From: Pirellulaceae bacterium
Lineage (GTDB): Bacteria > Planctomycetota > Planctomycetia > Pirellulales > Pirellulaceae
Direction of reading: 5' to 3'
Assembly: GCA_030744095.1 (NCBI GenBank)
Contig: JASLRF010000557.1
Span: 1 to 9,813, forward strand
DNA length: 9,813 bases
The notes under the pieces are model-generated. The model was not told the DNA's origin and did not search any database. It was given only the letters and a program-made list of their open reading frames with translations. Within the stretch, counting starts at the first letter, position 1, and every line of letters begins with the position of its first letter. Below, in pieces: positions 1 to 9,813 of the stretch. The position numbers were made by a program, and so were the translations under genes.

Positions 1-111
1 GACAAAGGCGTCCGCGTCGCCAAGAAGGCGTTTCAGACCATTACCAATCGACTTGAGCGAGACACCACGATCTCCAAATACGCCGTCCGCATTCAGCCGC
101 AGAAAACCTGA
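1..111 (+). CDS. C-terminal tail of an unidentified protein (cut by window start)
   Basis: An open frame runs from base 1 to a TGA at 109-111 and gives 36 residues: a basic stretch (VAKKAFQTITNRLER) followed by DTTISKYAVRIQPQKT. The frame has no stop before the end and no start inside the window, so it is the end of a longer gene. It lies about 70 nt before the CHAD gene on the same strand and could be co-transcribed with it. CHAD genes often neighbour polyphosphate kinase or exopolyphosphatase genes, but the tail is too short for me to assign it to either. Function unknown. Confidence 0.5.
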   Translation, partial: DKGVRVAKKAFQTITNRLERDTTISKYAVRIQPQKT

Positions 112-180
112 CGGTACATTTATTGCTGGGAGTTGCCTTAGAGCCGACAATGGAAATCTGGACTCAGCGAGAAGCTAATG

Positions 181-1140
181 ATGCCCGAAATCAACAACTG
201 GATGCAAGACATCACGTATGACGTGTCGGTGTGCGACGCCGCCAGACGATCTTTGCGGGCCAAGTTGTCTATGGTTGAACATTACCTTCCATTGGCTGCC
301 AAACATGCCACTGAAGACATCGAGCATGTCCATAAATTACGAGTCGCTACGCGTCGAACGATTGCCGCGTTAACTCTCTTTGCGGACGTGTTGCCAGTCA
401 AACAGACAAGGTGGTTGCGAAAGCACTTGAAGAGACTGCGTCGTGCAACCGGCAAGGCTCGTGATCTGGACGTCGTCGCCAGCAAGCAGGCAGGACAACG
501 ATTCAAGCGAAGTCGGAAGTTCGCTAAACGCATCCATCGCGAACGTAAACTCGCGCAACGACCGATCAACAAGTTCTACCGGCGACTGATTCCGAATGAC
601 TCGCTTGCTCGGCATGTCGACGACTTTCTCGATCAGATTGGCAAAGATCCGGCAGGCTCAGAACATGCTTGCTTTGGTGATTGGGCGAGATCGCGTCTCG
701 AATGCGTTGTGAAAAGATTCTTCGAATCTGTACCACGGCAAAAGAACGACCTCAAATCTCTTCATCGCTTTCGCATTCGCGGCAAGGAGCTACGCTACGC
801 GATGGAGCTGTTGGCTCCAGCCTTTCCTCCGGAGTTTCACGAAGAGCTGTCTCCAATTGTCGAGACGTTGCAGGACAGACTGGGGAAGATCAACGACCAC
901 GCCGTTGGCTGCGCGCGCTTCGAGCGATGGATCAAGTCCAGCAAGAAAAAGCACAGACGTTGCTTGCGAAAACAGCTCAACAGCGAACGTGGGAAACTCA
1001 AGTCATCCATGCGGAAGTTCGACAGATGGTGGACGCCCGAATTCTCCAACGAAGTGCTCGAGCGGTTTGACCGCTTCTTGAATCCGCATCCGCTCACGAT
1101 GTTGAATGCCGCAGGCCATTCAGACCCGGTCTGTCGTTGA
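181..1140 (+). CDS. CHAD-domain protein (polyphosphate-binding family)
   Basis: CHAD domains are all-helical, strongly basic proteins that bind inorganic polyphosphate; many are associated with polyphosphate granules. Two internal half-repeats are visible. The first has HKLRVATRRTIAALTLF (about residues 52-68) followed by LRRATGKARDLDVV (87-100). The second has LHRFRIRGKELRYAMEL (195-211) followed by LQDRLGKINDHAVG (231-244). The conserved His plus Arg/Lys ladder in each half is the CHAD signature. The protein is very rich in Arg and Lys, as expected for polyanion binding. No CYTH domain, membrane segment or signal peptide is seen, so it is a stand-alone CHAD protein of typical length (about 320 aa). 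Two adjacent ATGs (178 and 181) are possible. The weak SD GAGAAG at 169-174 is 3 nt from the first and 6 nt from the second, so 181 is preferred. Family assignment is firm; the cellular role is inferred. Confidence 0.88.
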   Translation: MPEINNWMQDITYDVSVCDAARRSLRAKLSMVEHYLPLAAKHATEDIEHVHKLRVATRRTIAALTLFADVLPVKQTRWLRKHLKRLRRATGKARDLDVVASKQAGQRFKRSRKFAKRIHRERKLAQRPINKFYRRLIPNDSLARHVDDFLDQIGKDPAGSEHACFGDWARSRLECVVKRFFESVPRQKNDLKSLHRFRIRGKELRYAMELLAPAFPPEFHEELSPIVETLQDRLGKINDHAVGCARFERWIKSSKKKHRRCLRKQLNSERGKLKSSMRKFDRWWTPEFSNEVLERFDRFLNPHPLTMLNAAGHSDPVCR

Positions 1141-1165
1141 CGGGCACCGCGCCGGGCGGGTACAC

Positions 1166-1188
1166 TTGATCGATTCTCTTACGATCAA
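1166..1188. repeat. 7-bp perfect inverted repeat between the CHAD gene and tkt
   Basis: TTGATCG (1166-1172) and CGATCAA (1182-1188) are exact reverse complements separated by 9 nt. They lie 26 nt after the CHAD stop. There is no T-run behind them, so they are not a classical intrinsic terminator. A dyad operator or a weak stem-loop is equally possible. A 10-bp perfect palindrome, GATTGCAATC, lies further on at 1211-1220. Either could occur by chance. Confidence 0.3.
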
Positions 1189-1303
1189 CTCTGTCGTGCG
1201 GGTGCGTCCCGATTGCAATCAGTGCATCACGACGGGCAACGAGCGCACCGACGAAGTCGCGAGCGCCGCTAGATAGTACCACGTCGCAAAGGAAGTATCA
1301 GCT

Positions 1304-3361
1304 ATGTCGGTTTCCACAACCAGTATTGAACAACTTACGATCAACACCATTCGAACTCTGTCAATGGACGGTGTCCAGCGAGCCAATAGCGGACACCCCG
1401 GCACGCCAATGGCCTTGGCACCTGTCTCGTATGCACTGTGGAGCAATGTTCTGCGGTTTGACCCTGGATGTCCCAGCTGGCCCGCACGCGATCGGTTCGT
1501 ACTCTCCTGTGGTCATGCGTCGATGTTACTGTATTCGCTGTTGCACTTGGCTGGGGTGCGACAGCAGGATGAACAGGGCAACGCCACGGATCAGCCAGCG
1601 ATTTCTCTGGAGGACATCAAGAACTTTCGCCAGCTGGGTAGCCCTTGTGCCGGTCACCCCGAATTCGGCGACGCGCCAGGAATTGAGACGACGACGGGCC
1701 CCTTGGGACAGGGAATTGGAAACAGTGTCGGCATGGCGATATCCGCCAAATGGCTGGCGGCACGCTACAACCGGCCTGGCTTCGAGTTGTTTGAGAACGA
1801 CGTTTATGCCCTGTGCAGCGATGGCGACCTGATGGAAGGCATCGGCTGCGAAGCCGCGTCACTTGCCGGACATTTGAAACTGTCCAACCTTTGTTGGATC
1901 TACGACGACAACAAGATCACCATCGAAGGTTGCACGGACCTTGCCTTTTCGGAAGATGTTGCCAAGCGTTTTGAAGGGCTTGGCTGGAATACGGTTTGTG
2001 TCACCGATGCCAACGATTTGGATGCTATGAACGCGGCATTCCAGTCTTTCAAAGACACCGGTGATCGCCCGACGCTCATCGTGCTGCAGAGCATCATTGG
2101 ATTTGGTTCACCAAACAAAGCGAATTCGCACGCGGCGCACGGCGCGCCGCTGGGCGACGACGAGATCCGATTGACCAAGGAAGCATACGGCTGGCCGGCC
2201 GACGAGAGGTTCCTGGTTCCAGAAGAAGCGGCCGCGCACTTTAGCGCCAGCGTCGCTGCTCGCGGTAAAGAAGCGCGCCAAGCGTGGCAAGCAAATTTTG
2301 CGGAATATGAGAAAGTACACAGCGATTTGGCCGATCAGTTGAAAGCAATTTGGTCGGGCAATTTGCCGACGGGTTGGGACGACGCGATTCCCACCTTTCC
2401 CACCGACGATAAAGGGATGGCCAGTCGCGCTTCCTCGGGCAAGGTTCTCAACGCGGTTGCCGATCAGATTCCATGGTTGCTCGGCGGTTCGGCCGACCTG
2501 GCTCCGTCGAACAACACGATGCTCAACGCCGAGGACGCAGGTGATTTTGGTGCGGACAACTATGGTGGTCGAAACATGCATTTCGGGATTCGCGAACACT
2601 CGATGGCCGCGGCCTGCAACGGAATGTCTCTAAGTGGCTTGCGACCTTATTGCGGTACCTTCTTCGTGTTTACGGATTACATGCGTCCGTCCATGCGGTT
2701 GGCAAGTATCATGCATCAGCCGGTAATCTATGTGTTGACGCATGATTCGATCGGGCTGGGGGAAGACGGTCCCACGCATCAACCCGTCGAACATCTGGCA
2801 GCGTGTCGCGCGATCCCTGGCTTGCGCGTCATGCGCCCTGCTGATGCGAACGAAGTTGCCGAGGCTTACCGTACCGCACTGGCCACGAACAATCACCCGA
2901 CTGCAATGGTGCTCACGCGGCAGGGCCTACCCACTCTTGATCGCCAGAAGTACGGTGCCGCTGCGGGCGTCGCACGAGGCGGTTACATCCTGGCGGACAC
3001 CGACGGTCAACCCGATGTGATCTTGATGGGAACGGGTAGCGAGATCAGAATCTGTCTGGAAGCACACCAACAGCTGACCGACGAAGGCGTCAAGGCCAGA
3101 GTCGTCAGTATGCCCTGCTGCGAGTTGTTTGATGAACAGGATCAAGCGTATCGCGACAGTGTTTTGCCGCCGACCGTAACGGCCCGCGTGGCCGTCGAAG
3201 CGGGGATCCGTCAGAGCTGGGATCGCTACCTGGGAATGTCTGGCCGATTCGTCGGCATGGCCAGCTTCGGGGCCTCAGGTCCTTTCGACCAGCTGTACGA
3301 TAGATTTGGCATCACGCCGGCCAACACCGTTGCCCAGGCCAAGGCAGCGCTGGCAAAGTAG
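1304..3361 (+). CDS. tkt: Transketolase
   Basis: Thiamine-diphosphate enzyme that moves two-carbon units between sugar phosphates in the non-oxidative pentose phosphate pathway; cytoplasmic. At 685 aa it has the family's full length. Recognisable motifs in order: ANSGHPGTPM (27-36, active-site His31), RFVLSCGHASML (64-75, His71), GPLGQG (132-137), the ThDP/Mg motif SDGDLMEG (172-179) ending at DDN (201-203), GGSADLAPSN (394-403), and FGIREHSM (427-434), whose Glu431 matches the catalytic Glu that activates the cofactor. LTHDSIGLGEDGPTHQPVEH (478-497) and RPADANE (511-517) complete the pyrimidine domain. The usual GDG of the ThDP motif reads SDG, a mild variant. An AAAGGAAG SD at 1288-1295 lies 8 nt before the ATG, which supports this start. 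The gene converges on the minus-strand gene ending at 3428. The 66-nt gap between them shows no convincing terminator hairpin. Confidence 0.97.
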   Translation: MSVSTTSIEQLTINTIRTLSMDGVQRANSGHPGTPMALAPVSYALWSNVLRFDPGCPSWPARDRFVLSCGHASMLLYSLLHLAGVRQQDEQGNATDQPAISLEDIKNFRQLGSPCAGHPEFGDAPGIETTTGPLGQGIGNSVGMAISAKWLAARYNRPGFELFENDVYALCSDGDLMEGIGCEAASLAGHLKLSNLCWIYDDNKITIEGCTDLAFSEDVAKRFEGLGWNTVCVTDANDLDAMNAAFQSFKDTGDRPTLIVLQSIIGFGSPNKANSHAAHGAPLGDDEIRLTKEAYGWPADERFLVPEEAAAHFSASVAARGKEARQAWQANFAEYEKVHSDLADQLKAIWSGNLPTGWDDAIPTFPTDDKGMASRASSGKVLNAVADQIPWLLGGSADLAPSNNTMLNAEDAGDFGADNYGGRNMHFGIREHSMAAACNGMSLSGLRPYCGTFFVFTDYMRPSMRLASIMHQPVIYVLTHDSIGLGEDGPTHQPVEHLAACRAIPGLRVMRPADANEVAEAYRTALATNNHPTAMVLTRQGLPTLDRQKYGAAAGVARGGYILADTDGQPDVILMGTGSEIRICLEAHQQLTDEGVKARVVSMPCCELFDEQDQAYRDSVLPPTVTARVAVEAGIRQSWDRYLGMSGRFVGMASFGASGPFDQLYDRFGITPANTVAQAKAALAK

Positions 3362-3427
3362 CCTGTCACGAGTTCTTCGTAGCCTGATTCGTGAGAATTC
3401 GAACGATTAAGATCTGCTAACTGTCGT

Positions 3428-4027
3428 TTAGCTGCAGTCCACTTTCTCCCAGAACTGCAACAGGTCTTTCCAGACCTTATCTTCCGCGTCGAACGGGTGG
3501 GGCGTGCGCAGAATCAAGACTGCGGTGTGATCAGCTTCGGGACAATACCAGCGGAAGACTTCGAGGTGTGTCGTTAAGGGCTGCTTAGTAACAAACGGAT
3601 CGAAGCCGTGAAACGTAATTGACCGACGGACGACCGCGTGCGAATGTTTAGTCGTCATTTGAGATTTTCCGAATTCGATCTTGATTTTCTGTGCCGCAAA
3701 TTGCCCTCGATACAGACCGGCATCGTAGGCCCGTAGCGCTCGATCGAAATCGGCTTGCTTTTCCAGGACATTGCCTTCCAACCAATAGAAGATCGGGTAC
3801 GACCAGGCGTAGTCGTCATTTTCGCGAAAGAAACCTGGTGGAAAACGCAGTTGCAGCCGACCTTTCCAGGGCAGGGTTTTTGCCCAAGCTGGTGGGTATT
3901 CGGTATCTTCAATCCGCCAGCCTGATGGTACTTGCAGACGAGGCGTTTCAGCGCCGCGAGCCATGGCGGGTACGATTCCAAGCGGAATCAACAAGAGCAC
4001 TGTACGTGGGAGGAGGGTCGGACGCAT
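3428..4027 (-). CDS. Exported protein of unknown function, third gene of the Pup-like/PafA-like unit
   Basis: I do not recognise the family. The 199-residue product begins with a Sec-type signal peptide: a short basic start (MRPTLLPR), a hydrophobic core (TVLLLIPLGIVPA) and a likely cleavage site near ARGA/ETP. The mature part of about 175 residues is soluble-looking and rich in aromatics, with short motifs such as LPWKGRLQLRFPPGFF and YPIFYWLEGNVLEK. It contains one Cys in the middle (FRWYCPEAD) and one near the C-terminus (VDCS). The frame stays open upstream to a TTG at 4075 that overlaps the stop of the PafA-like gene, but the ATG at 4027 has a good SD (AGGGAG, 7 nt away) and produces a proper signal peptide, so I chose it. 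The gene starts 44 nt after the PafA-like gene on the same strand and is probably co-transcribed with it. Whether it is functionally linked to the conjugation pair is unknown. Confidence 0.8.
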   Translation of the reverse strand: MRPTLLPRTVLLLIPLGIVPAMARGAETPRLQVPSGWRIEDTEYPPAWAKTLPWKGRLQLRFPPGFFRENDDYAWSYPIFYWLEGNVLEKQADFDRALRAYDAGLYRGQFAAQKIKIEFGKSQMTTKHSHAVVRRSITFHGFDPFVTKQPLTTHLEVFRWYCPEADHTAVLILRTPHPFDAEDKVWKDLLQFWEKVDCS

Positions 4028-4034
4028 GAGTGAT

Positions 4035-4040
4035 CTCCCT
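4035..4040 (-). promoter_or_regulatory. Ribosome binding site that fixes the start of the exported protein
   Basis: Read on the minus strand the bases are AGGGAG, 7 nt before the ATG at 4027-4025. This favours the ATG and its signal peptide over the upstream in-frame TTG at 4075. Confidence 0.6.
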
Positions 4041-4071
4041 GGTTCGTCTCCACCTGTGGCGATTGTCGTGC

Positions 4072-5850
4072 TCAATCCAAGTGCAAACCGTCTGTGCGGA
4101 CATTACTCTGGTGGCGGCCGTCACGGCGCGTGTCCTTTGCGGCACGTCCAAATCGTGCCAGCCGCACAACTTTGGCACCCCAACCTCGCCCGATAACAAC
4201 ATGCTGCCAATTTGCCCGAACTGGTTCGTCGCCGTCCGCAAATTCTCGGATGTAATGGCCCCGAGTCGTGGCGGGAGAGTTCGCTGGTGCCGACCGACGG
4301 GCGCGGTCGATCTCCTCGTTCGTCACCAAGACCGACGCCATCCCGGCGGGAACCAGCAGTTGATGGTAGCCCTCCGGCGACAATTCGTGGTAGCGGATAT
4401 CGATCTTCTTCTTTTCTTCCCAGGTCGCGCCCTGTCCCGCTTTGTCAATGAGGTATTTCTTGGTTACCCAATCCAACGAGCCAAACATTGAAAGCGAAGT
4501 CGCAGCGGATCGCGACATTTCCTCCAAGCTACTCAAAGCCTGTTCCCATAGTTGGATGATCTCTTCAGCCTCTTCTGGAACGTCGTCAACCTGTTTGGCA
4601 AGAAATGCTCGACACACCTCGAAGTAAAATCGTTGTAAGCCCAACGCAGTGGTCTTGCTTCCGTCGCTCAAGCCCAATTCAGCCGTCAGTGTCGGATCCG
4701 CGCAAACCCGATGCAATGCGCAGATTGGGCCGATCAAACGCGGTGGGTTACGGATAGCACCGGATTCGATGGCATCCAGCACCAGCATCGTTGTGCCGAC
4801 ACGAAGGTATTCCGCTGCATCACACATGTTCGAATCGCCGATGGCGAGCTGCAATCGCTGGCGTTGGGCAAACAACGTCAGATAATTGCGGGGCGCAAAC
4901 CAGGAATCGGTGTAGACCGCTTTGAAGAAATGGCCCATCGAAAATACGGGGCGATCATAAACCATGCCTCCAAATCCCGTCACACAATTGATTGCCGGGC
5001 CCTTGTCCGCGACATGAAAAGTGCCATCCCGATCGATCATGCCGGCTCCGGCGATCACCGGCCGGCTAATGAGAAATGGGAGCAGTTGTCGGCGTGCGCG
5101 ACGGAATCCGGTCGCCTGAATCAACACGTAAAGGTAGAGAGCCAATGGCGCGGTCAGCATCCGCGTTCCGAATTGAAGGGTCGTCTCTAGCCAGGCGGGC
5201 ACATGGATACAGGTCTCCCGTCCTTCGACCAGGTCGCTGCCAAACAAGAATAAAGCGACTGAGTGCCGCCCCCCAGTCAACAACTGAAATGGCAAATAAC
5301 ACAGCGCGGCAACCGCAAAGTAGCTGATCGTTACAAAGACCGACAGCAGTATGCCGATCCACGTCAGCACGGCCAGCGGAAACATGACAACCAAGCCAGC
5401 CCGCCAGAAAAACAGTTGCCAACCAGAAGCGATCGTTGCCTCGTAATTCTCTTGCGCGCCGTAGACGTTATCGTGGCCATCACGGTCATTCTTGATCAAG
5501 ACCATTTGGCCGTTGGTGACGGCTGACTTGGCCGACTCCGCCAACAGGCGATCTTGAGCGCGCTGGTAGGTCAGGGCTTCGCGCGGCCCGCGACATTCTG
5601 GTGTAGCACCTTCGACCAGGCCACCACCAGCCGCTGGTCGTTCTGCTTCGAACCAGACGGCACCGCCATTGGCCGTAAACACACCCTCTTTGAAGTGCTT
5701 GGCGGGAACCGCCAACACACGGCGACAGAGCGAGCCAATCAAAGCCTCGTACAAACGAAACTTCGATCGCGCCGTCTCGGAGTCGTCAGAATGGAAACGA
5801 ATGGCGTATTCTGTTTCCAATCCTACAAGCCGTTGAAAGACGTTCGACAC
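4072..5850 (-). CDS. PafA/Dop-family (Pup ligase-like) protein with a membrane insertion
   Basis: PafA and Dop share a glutamine-synthetase-like fold. PafA uses ATP to join the C-terminal Glu of Pup to a target lysine, while Dop deamidates or removes Pup. Motifs seen: GLETEYAI (10-17, ATP/Mg Glu), ANGGAVWFEAE (60-70), ATPECRGPREAL (82-93), KNDRDGHDNVYGAQENY (120-136), RPVIAGAG (263-270), GDSNMCDAAEYLRVGTT (338-354), LGLQRFY (403-409), SLDWVTKKYL (458-467) and IDIRYHEL (483-490). A C-terminal domain has TTRGHYIREF (528-537) and ANWQHVVIG (546-554). Between ENY136 and R263 lies an extra stretch of about 100 residues with a long hydrophobic block (147-191, probably two helices) and another at 230-248, so the enzyme is probably membrane-bound. 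The total of 592 aa compares with about 450-500 in the family. There is no Dop-loop, which leans toward PafA. The start is GTG, preceded in frame by a stop. The gene lies 15 nt behind the Pup-like gene. The exact reaction is inferred. Confidence 0.85.
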   Translation of the reverse strand: MSNVFQRLVGLETEYAIRFHSDDSETARSKFRLYEALIGSLCRRVLAVPAKHFKEGVFTANGGAVWFEAERPAAGGGLVEGATPECRGPREALTYQRAQDRLLAESAKSAVTNGQMVLIKNDRDGHDNVYGAQENYEATIASGWQLFFWRAGLVVMFPLAVLTWIGILLSVFVTISYFAVAALCYLPFQLLTGGRHSVALFLFGSDLVEGRETCIHVPAWLETTLQFGTRMLTAPLALYLYVLIQATGFRRARRQLLPFLISRPVIAGAGMIDRDGTFHVADKGPAINCVTGFGGMVYDRPVFSMGHFFKAVYTDSWFAPRNYLTLFAQRQRLQLAIGDSNMCDAAEYLRVGTTMLVLDAIESGAIRNPPRLIGPICALHRVCADPTLTAELGLSDGSKTTALGLQRFYFEVCRAFLAKQVDDVPEEAEEIIQLWEQALSSLEEMSRSAATSLSMFGSLDWVTKKYLIDKAGQGATWEEKKKIDIRYHELSPEGYHQLLVPAGMASVLVTNEEIDRARRSAPANSPATTRGHYIREFADGDEPVRANWQHVVIGRGWGAKVVRLARFGRAAKDTRRDGRHQSNVRTDGLHLD

Positions 5851-5865
5851 AAACTCGACCGCCTA

Positions 5866-6027
5866 CTATTCGCCACCGTGTGGAACTTTGGTCTCATCCA
5901 GATAAGCCTTGGCGGCCTGTTGACAGTCACGCTTCACGGTGGCGACAATCGAGGCCAGTGTTTTCGGCGCGCTGGTGGTCACGCTTTCACTGTTCTTTTC
6001 TTCCGTGCGAATTGCATCGGTAGTCAT
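5866..6027 (-). CDS. Pup/UBact-like small protein modifier ending in Gly-Gly-Glu
   Basis: This 53-residue protein is proposed to be the substrate of the PafA-like ligase next door. Pup and UBact are short, largely disordered proteins whose C-terminal Glu is joined to lysines of target proteins. Here the N-terminal half (MTTDAIRTEEKNSESVTTSA) is polar. Residues 22-46 can form a helix (TLASIVATVKRDCQQAAKAY, then LDET), and the end is KVPHGGE. The GGE end matches Pup after deamidation, so no deamidase would be needed. AKAYLDE resembles the RAYVQ-type segment just before GGQ in actinobacterial Pup. The rest is too diverged for alignment by eye. Five lysines (11, 22, 32, 40, 47) and one Cys (35) are present. 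Of two in-frame ATGs (6033 and 6027), the second is chosen because the SD AGAGGGG is 6 nt upstream of it and directly abuts the first. Two tandem TAG stops end the gene, 15 nt before the GTG of the PafA-like gene. Confidence 0.75.
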   Translation of the reverse strand: MTTDAIRTEEKNSESVTTSAPKTLASIVATVKRDCQQAAKAYLDETKVPHGGE

Positions 6028-6033
6028 TTGCAT

Positions 6034-6040
6034 CCCCTCT
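6034..6040 (-). promoter_or_regulatory. Ribosome binding site that fixes the start of the Pup-like gene
   Basis: AGAGGGG on the minus strand is a strong SD with 6 nt to the ATG at 6027-6025. It has no spacer to the ATG at 6033-6031, so the downstream ATG is the likely start. A strong SD in front of a 53-codon frame is itself evidence that the frame is translated. Confidence 0.6.
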
Positions 6041-6060
6041 GGGCTTGTTCTGAATCATTT

Positions 6061-6074
6061 GGTGGCAACCCACC
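6061..6074 (-). other. Small stem-loop in the leader of the Pup-like unit
   Basis: GGTGG (6061-6065) and CCACC (6070-6074) form a perfect 5-bp stem around a 4-nt loop. It sits in the proposed leader between the promoter and the SD, about 20 nt before the SD. It may stabilise or tune the message, or be chance. Confidence 0.25.
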
Positions 6075-6101
6075 GAACCGAACGCATGAATACGAGCTTC
6101 C

Positions 6102-6130
6102 ATGGTATTCCAGGCAGGGAATGCTGGCAA
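6102..6130 (-). promoter_or_regulatory. Sigma70-type promoter for the Pup-like/PafA-like unit
   Basis: On the minus strand TTGCCA (6130-6125; 5 of 6 to the -35 consensus) is followed after exactly 17 nt by TACCAT (6107-6102; 4 of 6 to the -10 consensus). Transcription would start near 6095 and give a leader of roughly 65-70 nt before the ATG at 6027. This suggests the unit is transcribed separately from the DHOD-like gene upstream, which ends 241 nt before it. Confidence 0.45.
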
Positions 6131-6259
6131 GGAAACGTGCCACTTTGATGCCGAGTTGGGGTCTTTTTGTGATAAACCGCCCGAGAATCGGCACAACGGG
6201 CCATCTTTCCGGCCAGCTCCTTCTGCGACGCGACTCGGCGCGGGACGAGGCGATTGTTT

Positions 6260-6282
6260 CACGTGACCCTATAAGTGACGTG
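6260..6282. repeat. Imperfect stem-loop across the stop codon of the DHOD-like gene
   Basis: CACGTGAC (6260-6267) and GTGACGTG (6275-6282) pair over 8 positions with one mismatch around a 7-nt loop. The stop codon (6271-6269, minus) lies in the loop. No U-run follows on the minus strand, so a canonical intrinsic terminator is not supported. It could be a transcript-end structure or a protein-binding dyad. Confidence 0.3.
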
Positions 6283-7330
6283 TTTCTTGCCATTCTTGTT
6301 TGATTTCGAGGGCGACGTGAGGATTCAACATCGCGGCCGTGGCCAAGTGCACTGCGTGCGCACCGGCACCAAGATAGCCGCGGACGTTGGTCGCCGAGCC
6401 CGCGCCGCCCACGCCGATCAGTTCGAGCTCAGAACCGCCAGCTGACAGCAGTTCATGAAACATCGCGACTTGGTTGGTCGACGCGTCCAGGATCGCGCTG
6501 CCACAGATCCCACGAACCTGGCCGTCAAATCGCCGTCCCCCACCCGACTGAACTACCTTAGTGGCAATACTATTGGTCATCGCCAATGCGGATGCGTTCG
6601 GTTCCAATGCATCGATCAACCGCGCGGCAGCATCGCGCGCCGAGACGTGCCCGACCTTGATGATCAGCGGCACATCACCAATCGCATCGCGAACACTTTC
6701 GGCGACTATCCTGGCATCGTCGGGCTGTTGAAACAACTGTCCGTCGCACGTCGCTACGTTGGGGCACGAAAAATTGGTCTCGACAACATCCGCCCCACTC
6801 TCGACCGCCCATTTGGCACAGCGCGCGTAGTCGTCGGCCAGATCGCCAATCGCCCAGCCATCTTGCACCGAAGCGACCACGGAGACACAAAGCAGTTTGT
6901 TTGACGCGAGTTGTTCGCGCGTCCACTGGACATCCGCGCGCCAGGACTCCGGCGATTTCGACGGCATTCCAAACGAGACGGCCCAACTCCCTTTCATCTC
7001 CTCGCATTCGTTTACATCAAGTTCGTCGCCGCGCAATGACGGGCATCCCACTGGAACGAGATTCGGCAGTGGGTAGCAGTCGCGCTGCCGGCTGCGAACC
7101 GTCTTGTAAGTGACCACGTCGAAACCAAGGCTGGCATAGTAGAGACACCACCTGCCGTTGAGCAACGGTCCGGCCGCAACGCCCAACGGCGACGCGACGG
7201 GAAGACCGCAAAACTGCCACTGACCTGCCATCGGCGGTACCACAACGTCAACGGGTTCGGGCCAGTGGCTGTAGTTCCACTCGTAAGACTGGTGCAGATC
7301 GTACCGAGGTAGCAACGATTGATGACCCAT
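6269..7330 (-). CDS. Dihydroorotate dehydrogenase-like FMN protein
   Basis: This is a TIM-barrel flavoprotein of the dihydroorotate dehydrogenase family, whose members oxidise dihydroorotate to orotate in pyrimidine synthesis or reduce related pyrimidines. Motifs: ASPLGVAAGPLLNGRW (46-61) and YKTVRS (75-80) near the start of the barrel; ETNFSCPN (184-191), the family's substrate-side motif; IIKVG (223-227), whose Lys225 should contact FMN; AMTNSI (250-255); GICGSAI (274-280); and the FMN-phosphate loop GVGGAGSATNVRGYLGAGA (306-324). The length of 353 aa is about that of family members, and no N-terminal membrane helix typical of class 2 enzymes is seen. I cannot assign the class or confirm the substrate by eye; a PreA-like or specialised relative is possible, so no symbol is given. 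No clear SD precedes the ATG. A TAAAAT -10-like box only 8 nt upstream suggests a nearly leaderless message. It faces ispE across a divergent region. Confidence 0.85.
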   Translation of the reverse strand: MGHQSLLPRYDLHQSYEWNYSHWPEPVDVVVPPMAGQWQFCGLPVASPLGVAAGPLLNGRWCLYYASLGFDVVTYKTVRSRQRDCYPLPNLVPVGCPSLRGDELDVNECEEMKGSWAVSFGMPSKSPESWRADVQWTREQLASNKLLCVSVVASVQDGWAIGDLADDYARCAKWAVESGADVVETNFSCPNVATCDGQLFQQPDDARIVAESVRDAIGDVPLIIKVGHVSARDAAARLIDALEPNASALAMTNSIATKVVQSGGGRRFDGQVRGICGSAILDASTNQVAMFHELLSAGGSELELIGVGGAGSATNVRGYLGAGAHAVHLATAAMLNPHVALEIKQEWQETRHL

Positions 7331-7338
7331 GGCAGCCC

Positions 7339-7344
7339 ATTTTA
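7339..7344 (-). promoter_or_regulatory. Possible extended -10 box for the DHOD-like gene
   Basis: On the minus strand TGTAAAAT contains TAAAAT (5 of 6 to TATAAT) with an upstream TG. It ends 8 nt before the start codon, so the transcript would begin within a few bases of the ATG. No good -35 box is visible, so support is weak. The lack of an SD in front of this gene fits a leaderless transcript. Confidence 0.22.
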
Positions 7345-7397
7345 CAGGCGATTCGCTTCATGGCGATGGAGCCGTGACCGGGAAACGTCGATTCGTG

Positions 7398-7425
7398 TTG
7401 ACCCTTGCTTCGGCACTTGTACAAT
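7398..7425 (+). promoter_or_regulatory. Sigma70-type promoter upstream of ispE
   Basis: TTGACC (7398-7403; 5 of 6) and TACAAT (7420-7425; 5 of 6) are separated by 16 nt. Transcription would start near 7432, leaving a leader of about 158 nt before the ispE ATG. It is the best plus-strand promoter in the divergent gap and probably drives ispE and the spoVG-like gene. Confidence 0.5.
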
Positions 7426-7461
7426 TCTGGGTGGCATTTGATTGACGTAAGATGCGATGCC

Positions 7462-7593
7462 ATGGTCATTTGCGGCACGCCGCAGGCAGCCAACAAGGAT
7501 GTCAAACCCAGCCTCTCGCGTGAATTGTCACCGGGACAGGATTTCCGAAAGGACGGCGGCGTCCAACTTGACCATCGATCGATCCAACTATGA
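7462..7593 (+). CDS. Candidate 43-codon leader ORF overlapping the ispE start
   Basis: An ATG at 7462 opens a frame of 43 residues (beginning MVICGTPQAANKDVKPS and ending HRSIQL) that stops at TGA 7591-7593. Its stop overlaps the ispE ATG as ATGA (7590-7593), the classic geometry for translational coupling, and ispE has no SD of its own. Against it: no clear SD precedes the ATG, other frames in this leader are also open, and I see no family resemblance. It could equally be untranslated leader. Confidence 0.25.
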   Translation: MVICGTPQAANKDVKPSLSRELSPGQDFRKDGGVQLDHRSIQL

Positions 7594-8573
7594 ACCAGAA
7601 CACCCGTGGCTCGATACGCATCGATTGTTCGGCAAAACTGAATTTGTTCTTAGAGGTGCTTGGCAAGCGTGATGACGGCTTTCATGAAATCGAAACGATC
7701 ATGTCGGCCGTTTCCTTATATGATTCACTGTTCTTTTTCAGTAACTCGACCGGCAACTTACGACTGAGCTGTCAATGGGCTTCCGGCTTGGAGGGACACA
7801 AGCGTGCGTCCGAGAACGGCATTTCAGACTGTTTGGGTGAGCTACCTCAGCATTCGGACAACATTGTCTGGAAGGCCGTTGAGCGCCTGCGAAATGACGC
7901 GGGTATAGAAGCGGGTGCAACGATCCAGTTGGTCAAGCGCATTCCCGCGATGGCAGGTCTTGGTGGCGCTTCAAGCAACGCGGCAGCCGCACTTTTGGCA
8001 GCCAATCGCGTCTGGCAATTGGGTTGGTCGCAGGCGCGGTTGGAACGGTTGGCGGCGGAGCTTGGGAGTGACGTTCCATTTTTCCTTGCAAGCCGATCGC
8101 CTGGGTCAGCCATGGCGGTGGCCCGCGGTCGTGGGGAACGGATCGAAGGATTGACCGGTATGACCAAACTGCATTTCGTTGTTGTGAGACCGCCCACGGG
8201 GCTCTCCACGCCGCGAGTTTACGGACGTTGTCTGCCGGCCGAAAAACCCACCAGTCTCAGTCAGCGAGTGCGAGCACTGCGCGACGGCAACCCTGCTCGC
8301 GTGGGTGCCCAACTGTTCAATCGCTTGCAATCCACCGCAACCGAGCTTTCGCCTTGGATCGAAAAGGTTCGCGCTGCTTTTAAACGACTCGACTGCCTCG
8401 GCCACGCCATGAGCGGCAGCGGCACCAGCTATTTCGGGCTCTTCCGCAGTGCGCGCCACGCAGCCAGACACGCGGTTCGTTTGCGAGCCGCGGGACTTGG
8501 TTATGTGTTTACAACAAGGACGGTCACAGTGCCCTGTCAAGTTGCGGGGTTCCGCCGAGTAAACGGCAAGTAG
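7590..8573 (+). CDS. ispE: 4-diphosphocytidyl-2-C-methyl-D-erythritol kinase (IspE)
   Basis: GHMP-family kinase that phosphorylates CDP-methylerythritol with ATP, the fourth step of the MEP route to isoprenoid precursors; cytoplasmic. Evidence: SAKLNLFLEVLGKRDDGFHE (14-33) with the catalytic Lys16 and the usual NLFL/DGFHEIETIM N-terminus; PAMAGLGGASSNAAAALL (119-136), the glycine-rich ATP loop; GSDVPFFL (159-166) with catalytic Asp161; LFNRLQ (242-247) at the usual LFNDLE position; and MSGSGTSYFGLF (274-285), the C-terminal glycine loop. Length 327 aa is slightly above the common 280-310. The extra residues include a stretch at about 51-90 before the conserved DNIVWKA. An in-frame stop 19-21 nt upstream makes this ATG the only ATG start that keeps the motif. 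No SD is visible, so translation may be coupled to a leader frame. The next gene follows 18 nt later. Confidence 0.95.
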   Translation: MNQNTRGSIRIDCSAKLNLFLEVLGKRDDGFHEIETIMSAVSLYDSLFFFSNSTGNLRLSCQWASGLEGHKRASENGISDCLGELPQHSDNIVWKAVERLRNDAGIEAGATIQLVKRIPAMAGLGGASSNAAAALLAANRVWQLGWSQARLERLAAELGSDVPFFLASRSPGSAMAVARGRGERIEGLTGMTKLHFVVVRPPTGLSTPRVYGRCLPAEKPTSLSQRVRALRDGNPARVGAQLFNRLQSTATELSPWIEKVRAAFKRLDCLGHAMSGSGTSYFGLFRSARHAARHAVRLRAAGLGYVFTTRTVTVPCQVAGFRRVNGK

Positions 8574-8591
8574 GTTAAGGGAGCAACCACG

Positions 8592-9215
8592 ATGAGAATC
8601 ACCGAAGTGAGAATCAAGCTGACGGAAGAAATAGATGATCGCCTCCAAGCTTTTTGTTCCGTCACATTCGACGACTGGTTTGTGGTTCGGGATCTGAAGA
8701 TCATCGAGGGTACCAACGGACCATTTGTGGCAATGCCAAGTCGAAAACTCACCGCACATTGCCCCCGCTGCGGTTCCAAGAATCATCTCCGCGCTAACTA
8801 CTGCAATCAGTGTGGTGGCAAGCAGGACCCGGATCGGGCCGTGCGAGACGATGCAGGACGCGCAAAGCTCTATGCCGATATCGCACACCCTATCAATTCT
8901 GATTGTCGCGAGATGATTCAGACGCGCGTCGTCGCGGATTATCAGAAAGAACGCGAGCTATCCAGCCAACCAGGCTATGTCTCTCGTTACGAAGATGAAT
9001 TCGACGATGATTTCGCTCCGCCAGCGGAAAACGGTGGTCCCACCGCTGTGGAAAATATGCCGTTGGAATCCAGACACCAGAAACGCGAACACACGGTCGT
9101 CGAACCGGCTGCCCCTGGACCCCGCGCCCCGCACGCCACCGCCGCGAGTCAAAAAAACCTGAATCGTGCCAACAGGAAAACAGGGGGGTTCGGTTCCGGG
9201 ATCCTGGACGACTGA
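8592..9215 (+). CDS. spoVG: SpoVG-family protein with zinc-ribbon insert and disordered tail
   Basis: SpoVG proteins are small nucleic-acid-binding regulators, studied mainly in Firmicutes and Borrelia, where they affect division, sporulation or virulence genes. The SpoVG fold is split here. Residues 1-54 hold the first half (ITEVRIKL, FVVRDLKIIEGTNGPFVAMPSRK), and 94-120 the second (YADIAHPINSDCREMIQ). Between them sits a zinc ribbon, HCPRC (56-60) and CNQC (71-74), with four Cys spaced 2-10-2. A basic or polar linker follows. After 130 an acidic, low-complexity tail (YEDEFDDDF, then Pro/Ala-rich) ends in GGFGSGILDD. Length 207 aa is about twice that of ordinary SpoVG (roughly 85-100). The AAGGGAG SD at 8577-8583 lies 8 nt before the ATG. 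It sits 18 nt behind ispE and is probably co-transcribed. The zinc ribbon is, to my recollection, common in planctomycete homologues. The target is unknown; a role in RNA or DNA binding is inferred. Confidence 0.9.
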   Translation: MRITEVRIKLTEEIDDRLQAFCSVTFDDWFVVRDLKIIEGTNGPFVAMPSRKLTAHCPRCGSKNHLRANYCNQCGGKQDPDRAVRDDAGRAKLYADIAHPINSDCREMIQTRVVADYQKERELSSQPGYVSRYEDEFDDDFAPPAENGGPTAVENMPLESRHQKREHTVVEPAAPGPRAPHATAASQKNLNRANRKTGGFGSGILDD

Positions 9216-9216
9216 A

Positions 9217-9247
9217 ACCGTTGGGGAATAGTCGCCACCGTGGGGAA
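9217..9247 (+). repeat. Two near-identical short direct repeats after the spoVG-like gene
   Basis: ACCGTTGGGGAA (9217-9228) and ACCGTGGGGAA (9237-9247) differ by one base and begin 20 bp apart, just after the stop. A complementary TCCCCAA occurs at 9352-9358. Two-turn spacing would suit a binding site, but chance is not excluded. Confidence 0.25.
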
Positions 9248-9295
9248 CGATCTCATAGTTGGTTGCCAGGCGTCGCGTGCTGGTCGCAGGGTTCC

Positions 9296-9339
9296 TAACG
9301 ATTCCTCGGGCAAGATCCGTCCCAGCCTCAGAATCGTTA
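9296..9339. repeat. 9-bp perfect inverted repeat in the gap after the spoVG-like gene
   Basis: TAACGATTC (9296-9304) and GAATCGTTA (9331-9339) are exact reverse complements around 26 nt. GGG (9308-9310) and CCC (9321-9323) inside the loop could extend the fold. It lies between the end of the ispE/spoVG-like unit and the next promoter, a natural place for a transcript end, but there is no T-run directly behind it; a T-rich patch (CTATTTTATTG) begins about 25 nt later. Confidence 0.4.
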
Positions 9340-9371
9340 CTTACGCCAAGCTCCCCAAGTCGTCTATTTTA

Positions 9372-9401
9372 TTGACCAGTGCTTATTGCCTGGACTATAC
9401 T
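9372..9401 (+). promoter_or_regulatory. Strong sigma70-type promoter for the secreted protein gene
   Basis: TTGACC (9372-9377; 5 of 6) and TATACT (9396-9401; 5 of 6) are separated by 18 nt. Transcription would start near 9408 and give a leader of about 70 nt before the ATG at 9477. It is the best-matching promoter in the window. Confidence 0.55.
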
Positions 9402-9476
9402 GAGTGTTTCCTACGCCCAGGTTGGCTGACTGTACGCCGCAGTGATCGGGCGATTCGACGGTTAGACGGACGTCTC

Positions 9477-9813
9477 ATGTTTCCAAAAAACCATCTACAT
9501 CTGACTGCGACATGGGTCTTGTTGGCTTCGTTTTGCACGACCCTCGTAGCCCAACAACCGCCAAGGATTCGACCACTAGCGCCAGGTGTGCTGACGGTCA
9601 TTCCCGTAGAAACTGAGCCTGAAGAGACATTTAGCGGCCCCGTACCGATTGTCGAAGTGGTGCAGGGGATCCCGAATCTGACTTGGACTCCGAACTTTGA
9701 CGCCAAGAGCAACACGCTGGAAGAGAAGGCCAAACGGGCGATTTTCCGCCGGCCGGTTTGGAATTTGGAGTTCGCATTCAAACCGCTCCGCATGTTGGAA
9801 GTTGATATTCCGC
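9477..9813 (+). CDS. Secreted protein of unknown function (cut by window end)
   Basis: An ATG at 9477 opens a frame that runs off the window after 112 codons. The first 25 residues form a Sec signal peptide: MFPKNHLH, then a hydrophobic core (TATWVLLASFCTTLVA), with likely cleavage near VAQ/QPP. The mature start is proline-rich (QPPRIRPLAPGVLTVIP), followed by an acidic patch (VETEPEETFSGP) and a mixed segment (FRRPVWNLEFAFKPLRMLEV). I recall conserved planctomycete exported proteins of this style but cannot name the family. The strong promoter at 9372-9401 supports the gene. The SD is weak or absent. A 5-bp inverted repeat, AGACG (9464-9468) and CGTCT (9471-9475), lies right before the start. 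C-terminal part and function unknown. Confidence 0.72.
   Translation, partial: MFPKNHLHLTATWVLLASFCTTLVAQQPPRIRPLAPGVLTVIPVETEPEETFSGPVPIVEVVQGIPNLTWTPNFDAKSNTLEEKAKRAIFRRPVWNLEFAFKPLRMLEVDIP

Follow-up and report, generated by a model that had tools for sequence, protein, structure and literature searches.

We report a candidate protein-modification system encoded on a contig of a Pirellulaceae bacterium (GenBank assembly GCA_030744095.1, contig JASLRF010000557.1), positions 1 to 9,813 of which (9,813 nucleotides, nt) were analysed and are referred to below as the window. The system consists of a small gene for a Pup-like modifier and, directly downstream on the same strand, a gene for a membrane-type Pup ligase of the PafA/Dop family. 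We consider it probable that the two form a membrane-anchored pupylation module of two genes. Comparison with related sequences and predicted structures shows a conserved, protein-coding gene pair, the invariant Gly-Glu (GE) ending of the modifier, the enzyme family, the predicted fold and the insertion in the enzyme, with no Mpa or 20S pair found in the relatives. Anatomy and comparison give good support, but no proof, for a ligation that is anchored at the membrane, needs no deamidation and is independent of the proteasome.

A modifier gene adjoins a membrane-type ligase gene

The modifier gene occupies positions 5866..6027 of the minus strand and encodes 53 residues, MTTDAIRTEEKNSESVTTSAPKTLASIVATVKRDCQQAAKAYLDETKVPHGGE, followed by a stop; the C-terminus reads VPHGGE. 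A Shine-Dalgarno sequence, AGAGGGG (6034..6040, minus strand), precedes the ATG at 6027 by 6 nt and directly abuts an alternative in-frame ATG at 6033 that would give 55 residues, which makes ATG 6027 the better start. Tandem TAG TAG stops are located at 5863..5868 (minus strand), and 15 nt separate the first of them from the GTG start codon (5850) of the ligase gene on the same strand. The original prediction, which gave no strand, had described a small frame with a strong Shine-Dalgarno sequence, tandem stops and a GGE end that terminates 15 nt before a PafA/Dop-family gene, and all of these features were seen. The C-terminal helix that it expected appears in the structure model as helices at residues 19–37 and 39–45, preceded by disordered residues 1–18 and followed by an extended tail (predicted local distance difference test, pLDDT, 76; predicted template modelling score, pTM, 0.47). 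The window modifier thus combines the Pup-type traits of a C-terminal GG[EQ], a disordered N-terminal part and a helical C-terminal part.

The ligase gene (4072..5850, minus strand, GTG start) encodes 592 residues that match PF03136 (Pup_ligase) over the length of the protein, with an E-value of 2.6e-80 and above the gathering score. Its predicted fold is of the Dop/PafA type, with Dop and PafA by far the closest folds; matches to glutamate-cysteine ligases were also returned. Directly after core strand 4, hydropathy and the model indicate a putative transmembrane (TM) insertion, a hydrophobic stretch of approximately residues 143–246 (5113..5424, minus strand) between the YGAQENY strand and FRRARRQLLPFLISR. 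The insertion was assigned from an alignment with soluble PafA/UBact-type enzymes, from hydropathy and from long helices in the model, which has a single 50-residue helix (142–191) and more helices up to residue 245. Hydropathy analysis of 15 ligases gave 1–4 merged segments within the insertion, the window enzyme having two that overlap.

Glu68 (E67 as numbered in the model), encoded at 5647..5649 (minus strand), stands at a presumed catalytic position where several soluble PafA-type enzymes have an aligned Asp. For the membrane clade, 65 distinct rows (two of them pieces of the L056 ligase; L062, cut by a contig end, was excluded) contain 63 Glu, one Asp and one gap. Asp was found in seven soluble rows with a readable motif (L063, L064, L065 8203, L066, L067 twice and L068) and Glu in the other three of ten (L065 6226, L085 and L086). 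The N-terminal half of the soluble enzymes was left unaligned by hmmalign; the contrast comes from a MAFFT alignment and a motif scan, not from structures. Glu68 was dropped as an exclusive mark of the membrane clade and is regarded as usual only, since three soluble rows share it.

The modifier is a conserved gene

Five database proteins matched the window frame with identities of 70–98%, all ending KVPHGGE. A search of the protein database with the family alignment returned 45 proteins and, together with the frame search, 47 distinct ones, each ending in GE; the search profile itself contains GE columns. A scan of GTDB genomes, for which 19 ligases were aligned as the query, yielded 68 loci, 62 of which (L001–L062) have the same ligase type as the window and six of which (L063–L068) are distant soluble relatives. 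Of the 68 loci, 51 have a GE-ended frame no more than 260 nt upstream of where the ligase match begins. The modifier of L049, ending 410 nt upstream of the ligase match start, was added by profile, giving a total of 52 of the 62 loci; L016, where the contig starts 42 nt upstream, was not judgeable. The distance between the modifier stop and the ligase match start, tallied for 50 of the 52 loci, has a median of 13 nt and is at most 60 nt in 45 of them.

The window and 51 loci were combined in a 52-member alignment, from which L001 was omitted because its 5′-end is cut. The terminal Gly-Glu is invariant, and Asp34 and Tyr42 are near-invariant. The conserved GGE or GGQ end expected by the original prediction therefore holds as Gly-Glu, present in 52/52 aligned and 47/47 database members; the exact GGE is not universal, being replaced by NGE, CGE, EGE or DGE in some lineages. 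Among 10,053 stop-to-stop frames of 30–180 residues in L001–L062, a GE ending occurs in 70; once the 51 modifiers are set aside, the background is 19 frames (0.19%). GQ ends 38 frames of the same set.

The ratio of nonsynonymous to synonymous substitution rates (dN/dS) was 0.13–0.27 in six modifier pairs (among L003, L004 and L005 and among L013, L019 and L020), 0.24 for the window and L001, 0.50 for the window and L002, and 0.25 for L011 and L012. Substitution is thus of a coding type in nine of 14 pairs (dN/dS 0.13–0.50). A chance open reading frame was ruled out by conservation, dN/dS and the unlinked copies described below. On the basis of these sequence comparisons, the small frame is confirmed as a real conserved gene, beyond chance.

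Some modifiers are encoded apart from the ligase

The nine remaining loci all belong to the Rhodopirellula/Rubripirellula group and have no GE-ended frame beside the ligase. Loss of the modifier in Rhodopirellula was considered and overturned by a whole-genome profile search, which revealed a distant frame ending [H/Y/C]DGE in each of the nine genomes (E-values of 1e-4 or better in four, 0.018 to 0.27 in five). In R. baltica (G027) modifier and ligase are on different contigs, and on the single large contig of G026 they lie at 0.64 Mb and 8.01 Mb, respectively. A six-frame all-against-all comparison of the Rhodopirellula clade was uninformative, since conserved DNA produces matches in all frames. 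The unlinked modifiers of this group (L069, L070 and L073–L077) share a genomic location. Downstream of the unlinked modifier, an opposite-strand gene is present in 6/9 genomes; in L075, where its family was tested, it belongs to His_biosynth. A protein of ~780 residues follows in 7/9, and its two tested copies, those of L070 and L075, have no Pfam match.

Roseiconus nitratireducens (G030, locus L046) has two membrane-type ligases and two modifiers (L078, L090 and L091). Its adjacent modifier ends GGGE and its unlinked one HDGE, and the L090 ligase is of the Rhodopirellula type, without a modifier neighbour. The specificity of ligases for their modifiers thus has a natural test case in this genome. 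Of 118 sampled genomes from the order of G027, PF03136 was detected in eight and the membrane type in five (G027 and G153 among them already belonged to the first set); all five have a GE-ended modifier. A modifier-profile match reaching the GE end was found in none of 20 ligase-less genomes. The original prediction had named a lack of conservation of the frame or its end, or substitution of a non-coding type, as grounds for rejecting it; the results of both comparisons, and the empty search of the ligase-less genomes, leave it standing. In all, 66 modifiers were collected from genomes, every one ending in GE: the 52 aligned, that of L001, the nine unlinked, those of G137, G141 and G149, and the second of G030. 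The phagocytotic Candidatus Uabimicrobium amorphum (L052) also has the pair, with a modifier ending VPKGGE.

Soluble relatives and enzyme number

A UBact locus is defined by two soluble PafA/Dop paralogues; the window has one membrane-type enzyme. Four of the distant loci (L063, L064, L066 and L067), which we take to be of the UBact type, carry at least two soluble PafA/Dop-like frames each; the modifier ends GGQ at three of these loci and GGE at the fourth. The Candidatus Azambacteria locus L065 has a canonical Pup (PF05639, E-value 2.9e-18) and three PafA/Dop-like frames. Among the nine non-membrane-type loci with a recognisable modifier (L063–L067 and L086–L089), seven end in GQ and two in GE, namely L066 with two enzymes and L087 (genome G131) with one. 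Glu endings and single-enzyme systems thus tend to occur together, which fits a pathway without a deamidase, although L066 is an exception and the rows are few and related. Besides a membrane-type GE pair, G153 and G006 each have a second locus at which two further PF03136 proteins accompany an SGQ-ended modifier (5929–6135 in L088 and 1862–2104 in L089).

In 33 of 36 relatives PF03136 matches only once. The other three are G025, where one gene is in two pieces, G030 with its two membrane-type ligases, and G006 with its second locus. The Mpa cut-off was passed by none of 32 relatives (32 of the 36 genomes) compared to one of 14 control genomes. PF00227 matched in 25/36 relatives, with a full-length pair in none; 23 of the 25 passed the HslV cut-off, G004 has an HslV fragment, and G028 has a PF00227 match without an HslV match. 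Coupling of the modifier to Mpa and a 20S proteasome is thus unsupported in the relatives. Frames of 90 residues or more revealed no third gene that accompanies the pair from locus to locus: neighbour clusters besides the ligase comprise at most seven loci and reflect synteny in the Rhodopirellula group or are scattered in position and strand.

Proposed mechanism and alternatives

From this anatomy we infer conjugation, a lysine acceptor, the membrane topology and an outcome of tagging. The modifier, with its disordered N-terminus, bihelical C-terminal part and free Gly-Gly-Glu tail, would be held by the enzyme on the GS-fold active site, where the C-terminal Glu would be phosphorylated on its gamma-carboxylate at the expense of ATP. 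The activated modifier would then be transferred to an amine. As the insertion behind core strand 4 would hold the enzyme at the membrane, the likeliest acceptor would be a lysine on a protein in or near the membrane. A deamidase would be unnecessary, since the tail already ends in Glu. The single enzyme per genome would make the bond and perhaps slowly undo it. The tag would not be fed to the 20S proteasome and would probably serve as a regulatory or sorting mark, or feed another protease.

Several observations weigh against this scheme, some of them concerning the kinship of its parts with Pup. The Pup models of Pfam and NCBIfam (PF05639 and TIGR03687) recognise none of the 52 members, while the canonical Pup of L065, a positive control, was recognised with 2.9e-18 and 3.4e-15. 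Profile comparison of the family with the L065 Pup was weak (probability 7.6%, P 0.0046), with 32 columns collinear up to GG, and comparison with eight soluble Pup/UBact-type modifiers gave a probability of 3.0% (P 0.015). The ligase scores far under the PafA/Dop equivalog cut-offs (174.2 vs 551.3 for TIGR03686, 175 vs 492.3 for TIGR03688). A profile search of PDB returned chance matches only (ribosome recycling factor), and a PHROGs search returned nothing. The original description as a Pup/UBact-like modifier is supported, on sequence grounds, in its Pup-like part, the gene being conserved, coding, GE-ended and beside a ligase; by profile the product is neither Pup nor UBact. We suggest that it probably works like Pup and probably shares a root with it, while falling outside Pup by profile.

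Other adverse points concern linkage, detection and class assignment. Modifier and ligase are unlinked in all nine Rhodopirellula-group genomes, in G137 and G141 and in the second pair of G030. Profile scores are weak for the modifiers of L073, L074, L075, L076, L077 and G141 (E-values 0.018 to 0.27), for which a common ending and, in five of the six, a common location speak; the L077 match ends three positions short of the C-terminus. The second G030 modifier scores only 0.23, that of G149 escaped the profile at E 0.1 and was spotted by eye adjoining the ligase, and none was recognised at L068 and L085. In five of the 14 modifier pairs dN/dS is 0.62–1.06; dS is saturated in several others and above 1 in five pairs. 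Flagging frames by a GE or GQ ending is partly circular, a concern countered by the retention of Asp34 and Tyr42, which were not selected for, by the lack of GQ among the flagged modifiers, by the 47/47 GE count and by the 0.19% background. TM segments were assigned by a hydropathy threshold below which L026 falls despite its clade membership and insertion, L056 is a split gene close to a contig end, and the G137 and G141 ligases were counted as membrane-type from match length alone. Glu68 replaces the Asp of soluble PafA-type enzymes, though three of ten readable soluble rows share it. In the soluble G131 locus L087, a 64-residue SGE-ended frame (4342–4536) lies 7 nt before a lone PF03136 gene, perhaps a soluble one-enzyme system with a native Glu. 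The absence of a proteasome refers to relatives, partly draft genomes, rather than to the window's own genome, and conjugation and the bypass of deamidation by the Glu end are deductions from sequence.

An alternative that we hold unlikely is that the enzyme joins the modifier not to protein lysines but to the amine of a small molecule or a membrane lipid (for example an aminophospholipid, ornithine lipid or polyamine). The system would then be a bacterial parallel to Atg8 lipidation, or to LysW-type carriers that bear metabolites on a C-terminal Glu. The small-amine ligases in the wider fold family (the glutamate-cysteine ligase matches), the membrane insertion and the lack of Mpa or a 20S pair in relatives would suit such a role. 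However, Dop and PafA, whose acceptor is a protein lysine, are by far the closest folds, no conserved third gene at the ligase loci points to a metabolic pathway, and amino-group-carrier models match no member; an acyl-carrier-protein match in one of the 52 members is weak (E 0.0015) and was taken as chance. We give still less credence to a specific form of this idea, in which a membrane-embedded carboxylate-amine ligase would tag lipids or amine metabolites as a counterpart of Atg8 lipidation built on Pup chemistry, without proteasome, deamidase or third conserved component, in planctomycetes (including Uabimicrobium), myxobacteria and Acidobacteriota. Equally improbable is an enzyme that is mainly a Dop-like depupylase or deamidase, with the ligase for the modifier elsewhere or missing: 33/36 relatives have only one PF03136 match, and a deamidase would be left without a substrate because every modifier observed already ends in Glu.

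A standard Pup- or UBact-proteasome system with proteasome genes elsewhere would share the enzyme family and the similar GG[EQ] ending. We find it very improbable in view of the Mpa counts (0/32 relatives vs 1/14 controls) and of PF00227, for which two full-length proteins occur in 0/36 relatives and 23 of the 25 genomes with a match pass the HslV cut-off, both results being from relatives only. A short frame just upstream of the ligase could also be a chance reading frame or an unrelated leader peptide that controls the ligase gene. The 52/52 GE ending, the near-invariant Asp34 and Tyr42, the low dN/dS in most pairs and the unlinked copies in 9/9 Rhodopirellula-group genomes leave this next to no probability, and a leader peptide is ruled out as incompatible with unlinked copies.

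Pupylation is the textbook route to the proteasome. The membrane-anchored module would keep modifier and ligase in relatives without Mpa and a 20S pair and usually without a second PafA/Dop enzyme. Because of these absences and the membrane insertion of the ligase, the pair would be a natural test of pupylation without degradation. The analysis provides a sharp family definition, a target for two-protein reconstitution and a modifier that current Pfam and NCBIfam models miss.

Other genes in the window

A frame of at most 215 residues directly follows the ligase gene (3428–4075, minus strand); its first possible start, TTG, overlaps the ligase stop. It has no family match above threshold and is absent from the recurring neighbours. 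On the plus strand, 8592–9215 encodes a 207-residue SpoVG-domain protein with a zinc-ribbon-like segment at residues 52–78, inside the SpoVG match; its product is an unusual extended SpoVG.

Comparison with known systems

The membrane-type pair and the Pup-proteasome system have in common a small modifier with a disordered N-terminal part, a helical C-terminal part and a GG[EQ]-like end, as well as the family and fold of the ligase. They differ in that Pup profiles fail on the membrane-type modifier, which has native Glu only, and in that its ligase has a membrane insertion, is the one enzyme in most genomes and is accompanied by no Mpa or 20S pair in the relatives. UBact, reportedly described by Lehmann et al. 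in 2017, is likewise a Pup-like modifier outside Actinobacteria; UBact-type loci differ in their two or more soluble PafA/Dop-like frames and in the GGQ ends of three of four modifiers. LysW-type amino-group carriers are very short proteins with a C-terminal Glu, the side-chain carboxylate of which becomes joined to an amine. The membrane-type modifiers resemble them in size and in ending in Glu; the LysW system differs in its ATP-grasp ligase fold and metal-binding body, and no amino-group-carrier model matched the family.

Going beyond the original prediction, hydropathy and the model suggest that the enzyme is inserted in the membrane, and the class proves to have been described in 2008 (PMC2588565). 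According to the accessible text of that paper, Iyer, Burroughs and Aravind reported Pup in Rhodopirellula and Plesiocystis, including an unannotated small Rhodopirellula open reading frame, and Pup ligases in which core strand 4 is followed by four TM segments; they noted no proteasome linkage, proposed membrane proteins as targets, and stated that pup always neighbours pafA and that a membrane-protein gene is linked to the pair. Plesiocystis pacifica is locus L059 of the present set. In the parts accessible, a 2010 review cites this work and suggests lateral transfer from actinobacteria (PMC2837639), and a 2020 paper uses a single planctomycete PafA/Dop homologue as an outgroup (PMC7947786). 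Our search of the open-access literature, as far as its texts were accessible, found no bench test of the membrane-type class and no later study beyond these two. In contrast to the 2008 account as accessible, the GE-ended member of the Rhodopirellula group is unlinked here (the frame of 2008 may or may not be the same one), and no third gene recurs. Both accounts agree on a short G[EQ]-ended modifier (50–90 residues in 2008) that adjoins a PafA-family ligase with a TM insertion, and by its sequence the window pair is a member of the class predicted in 2008.
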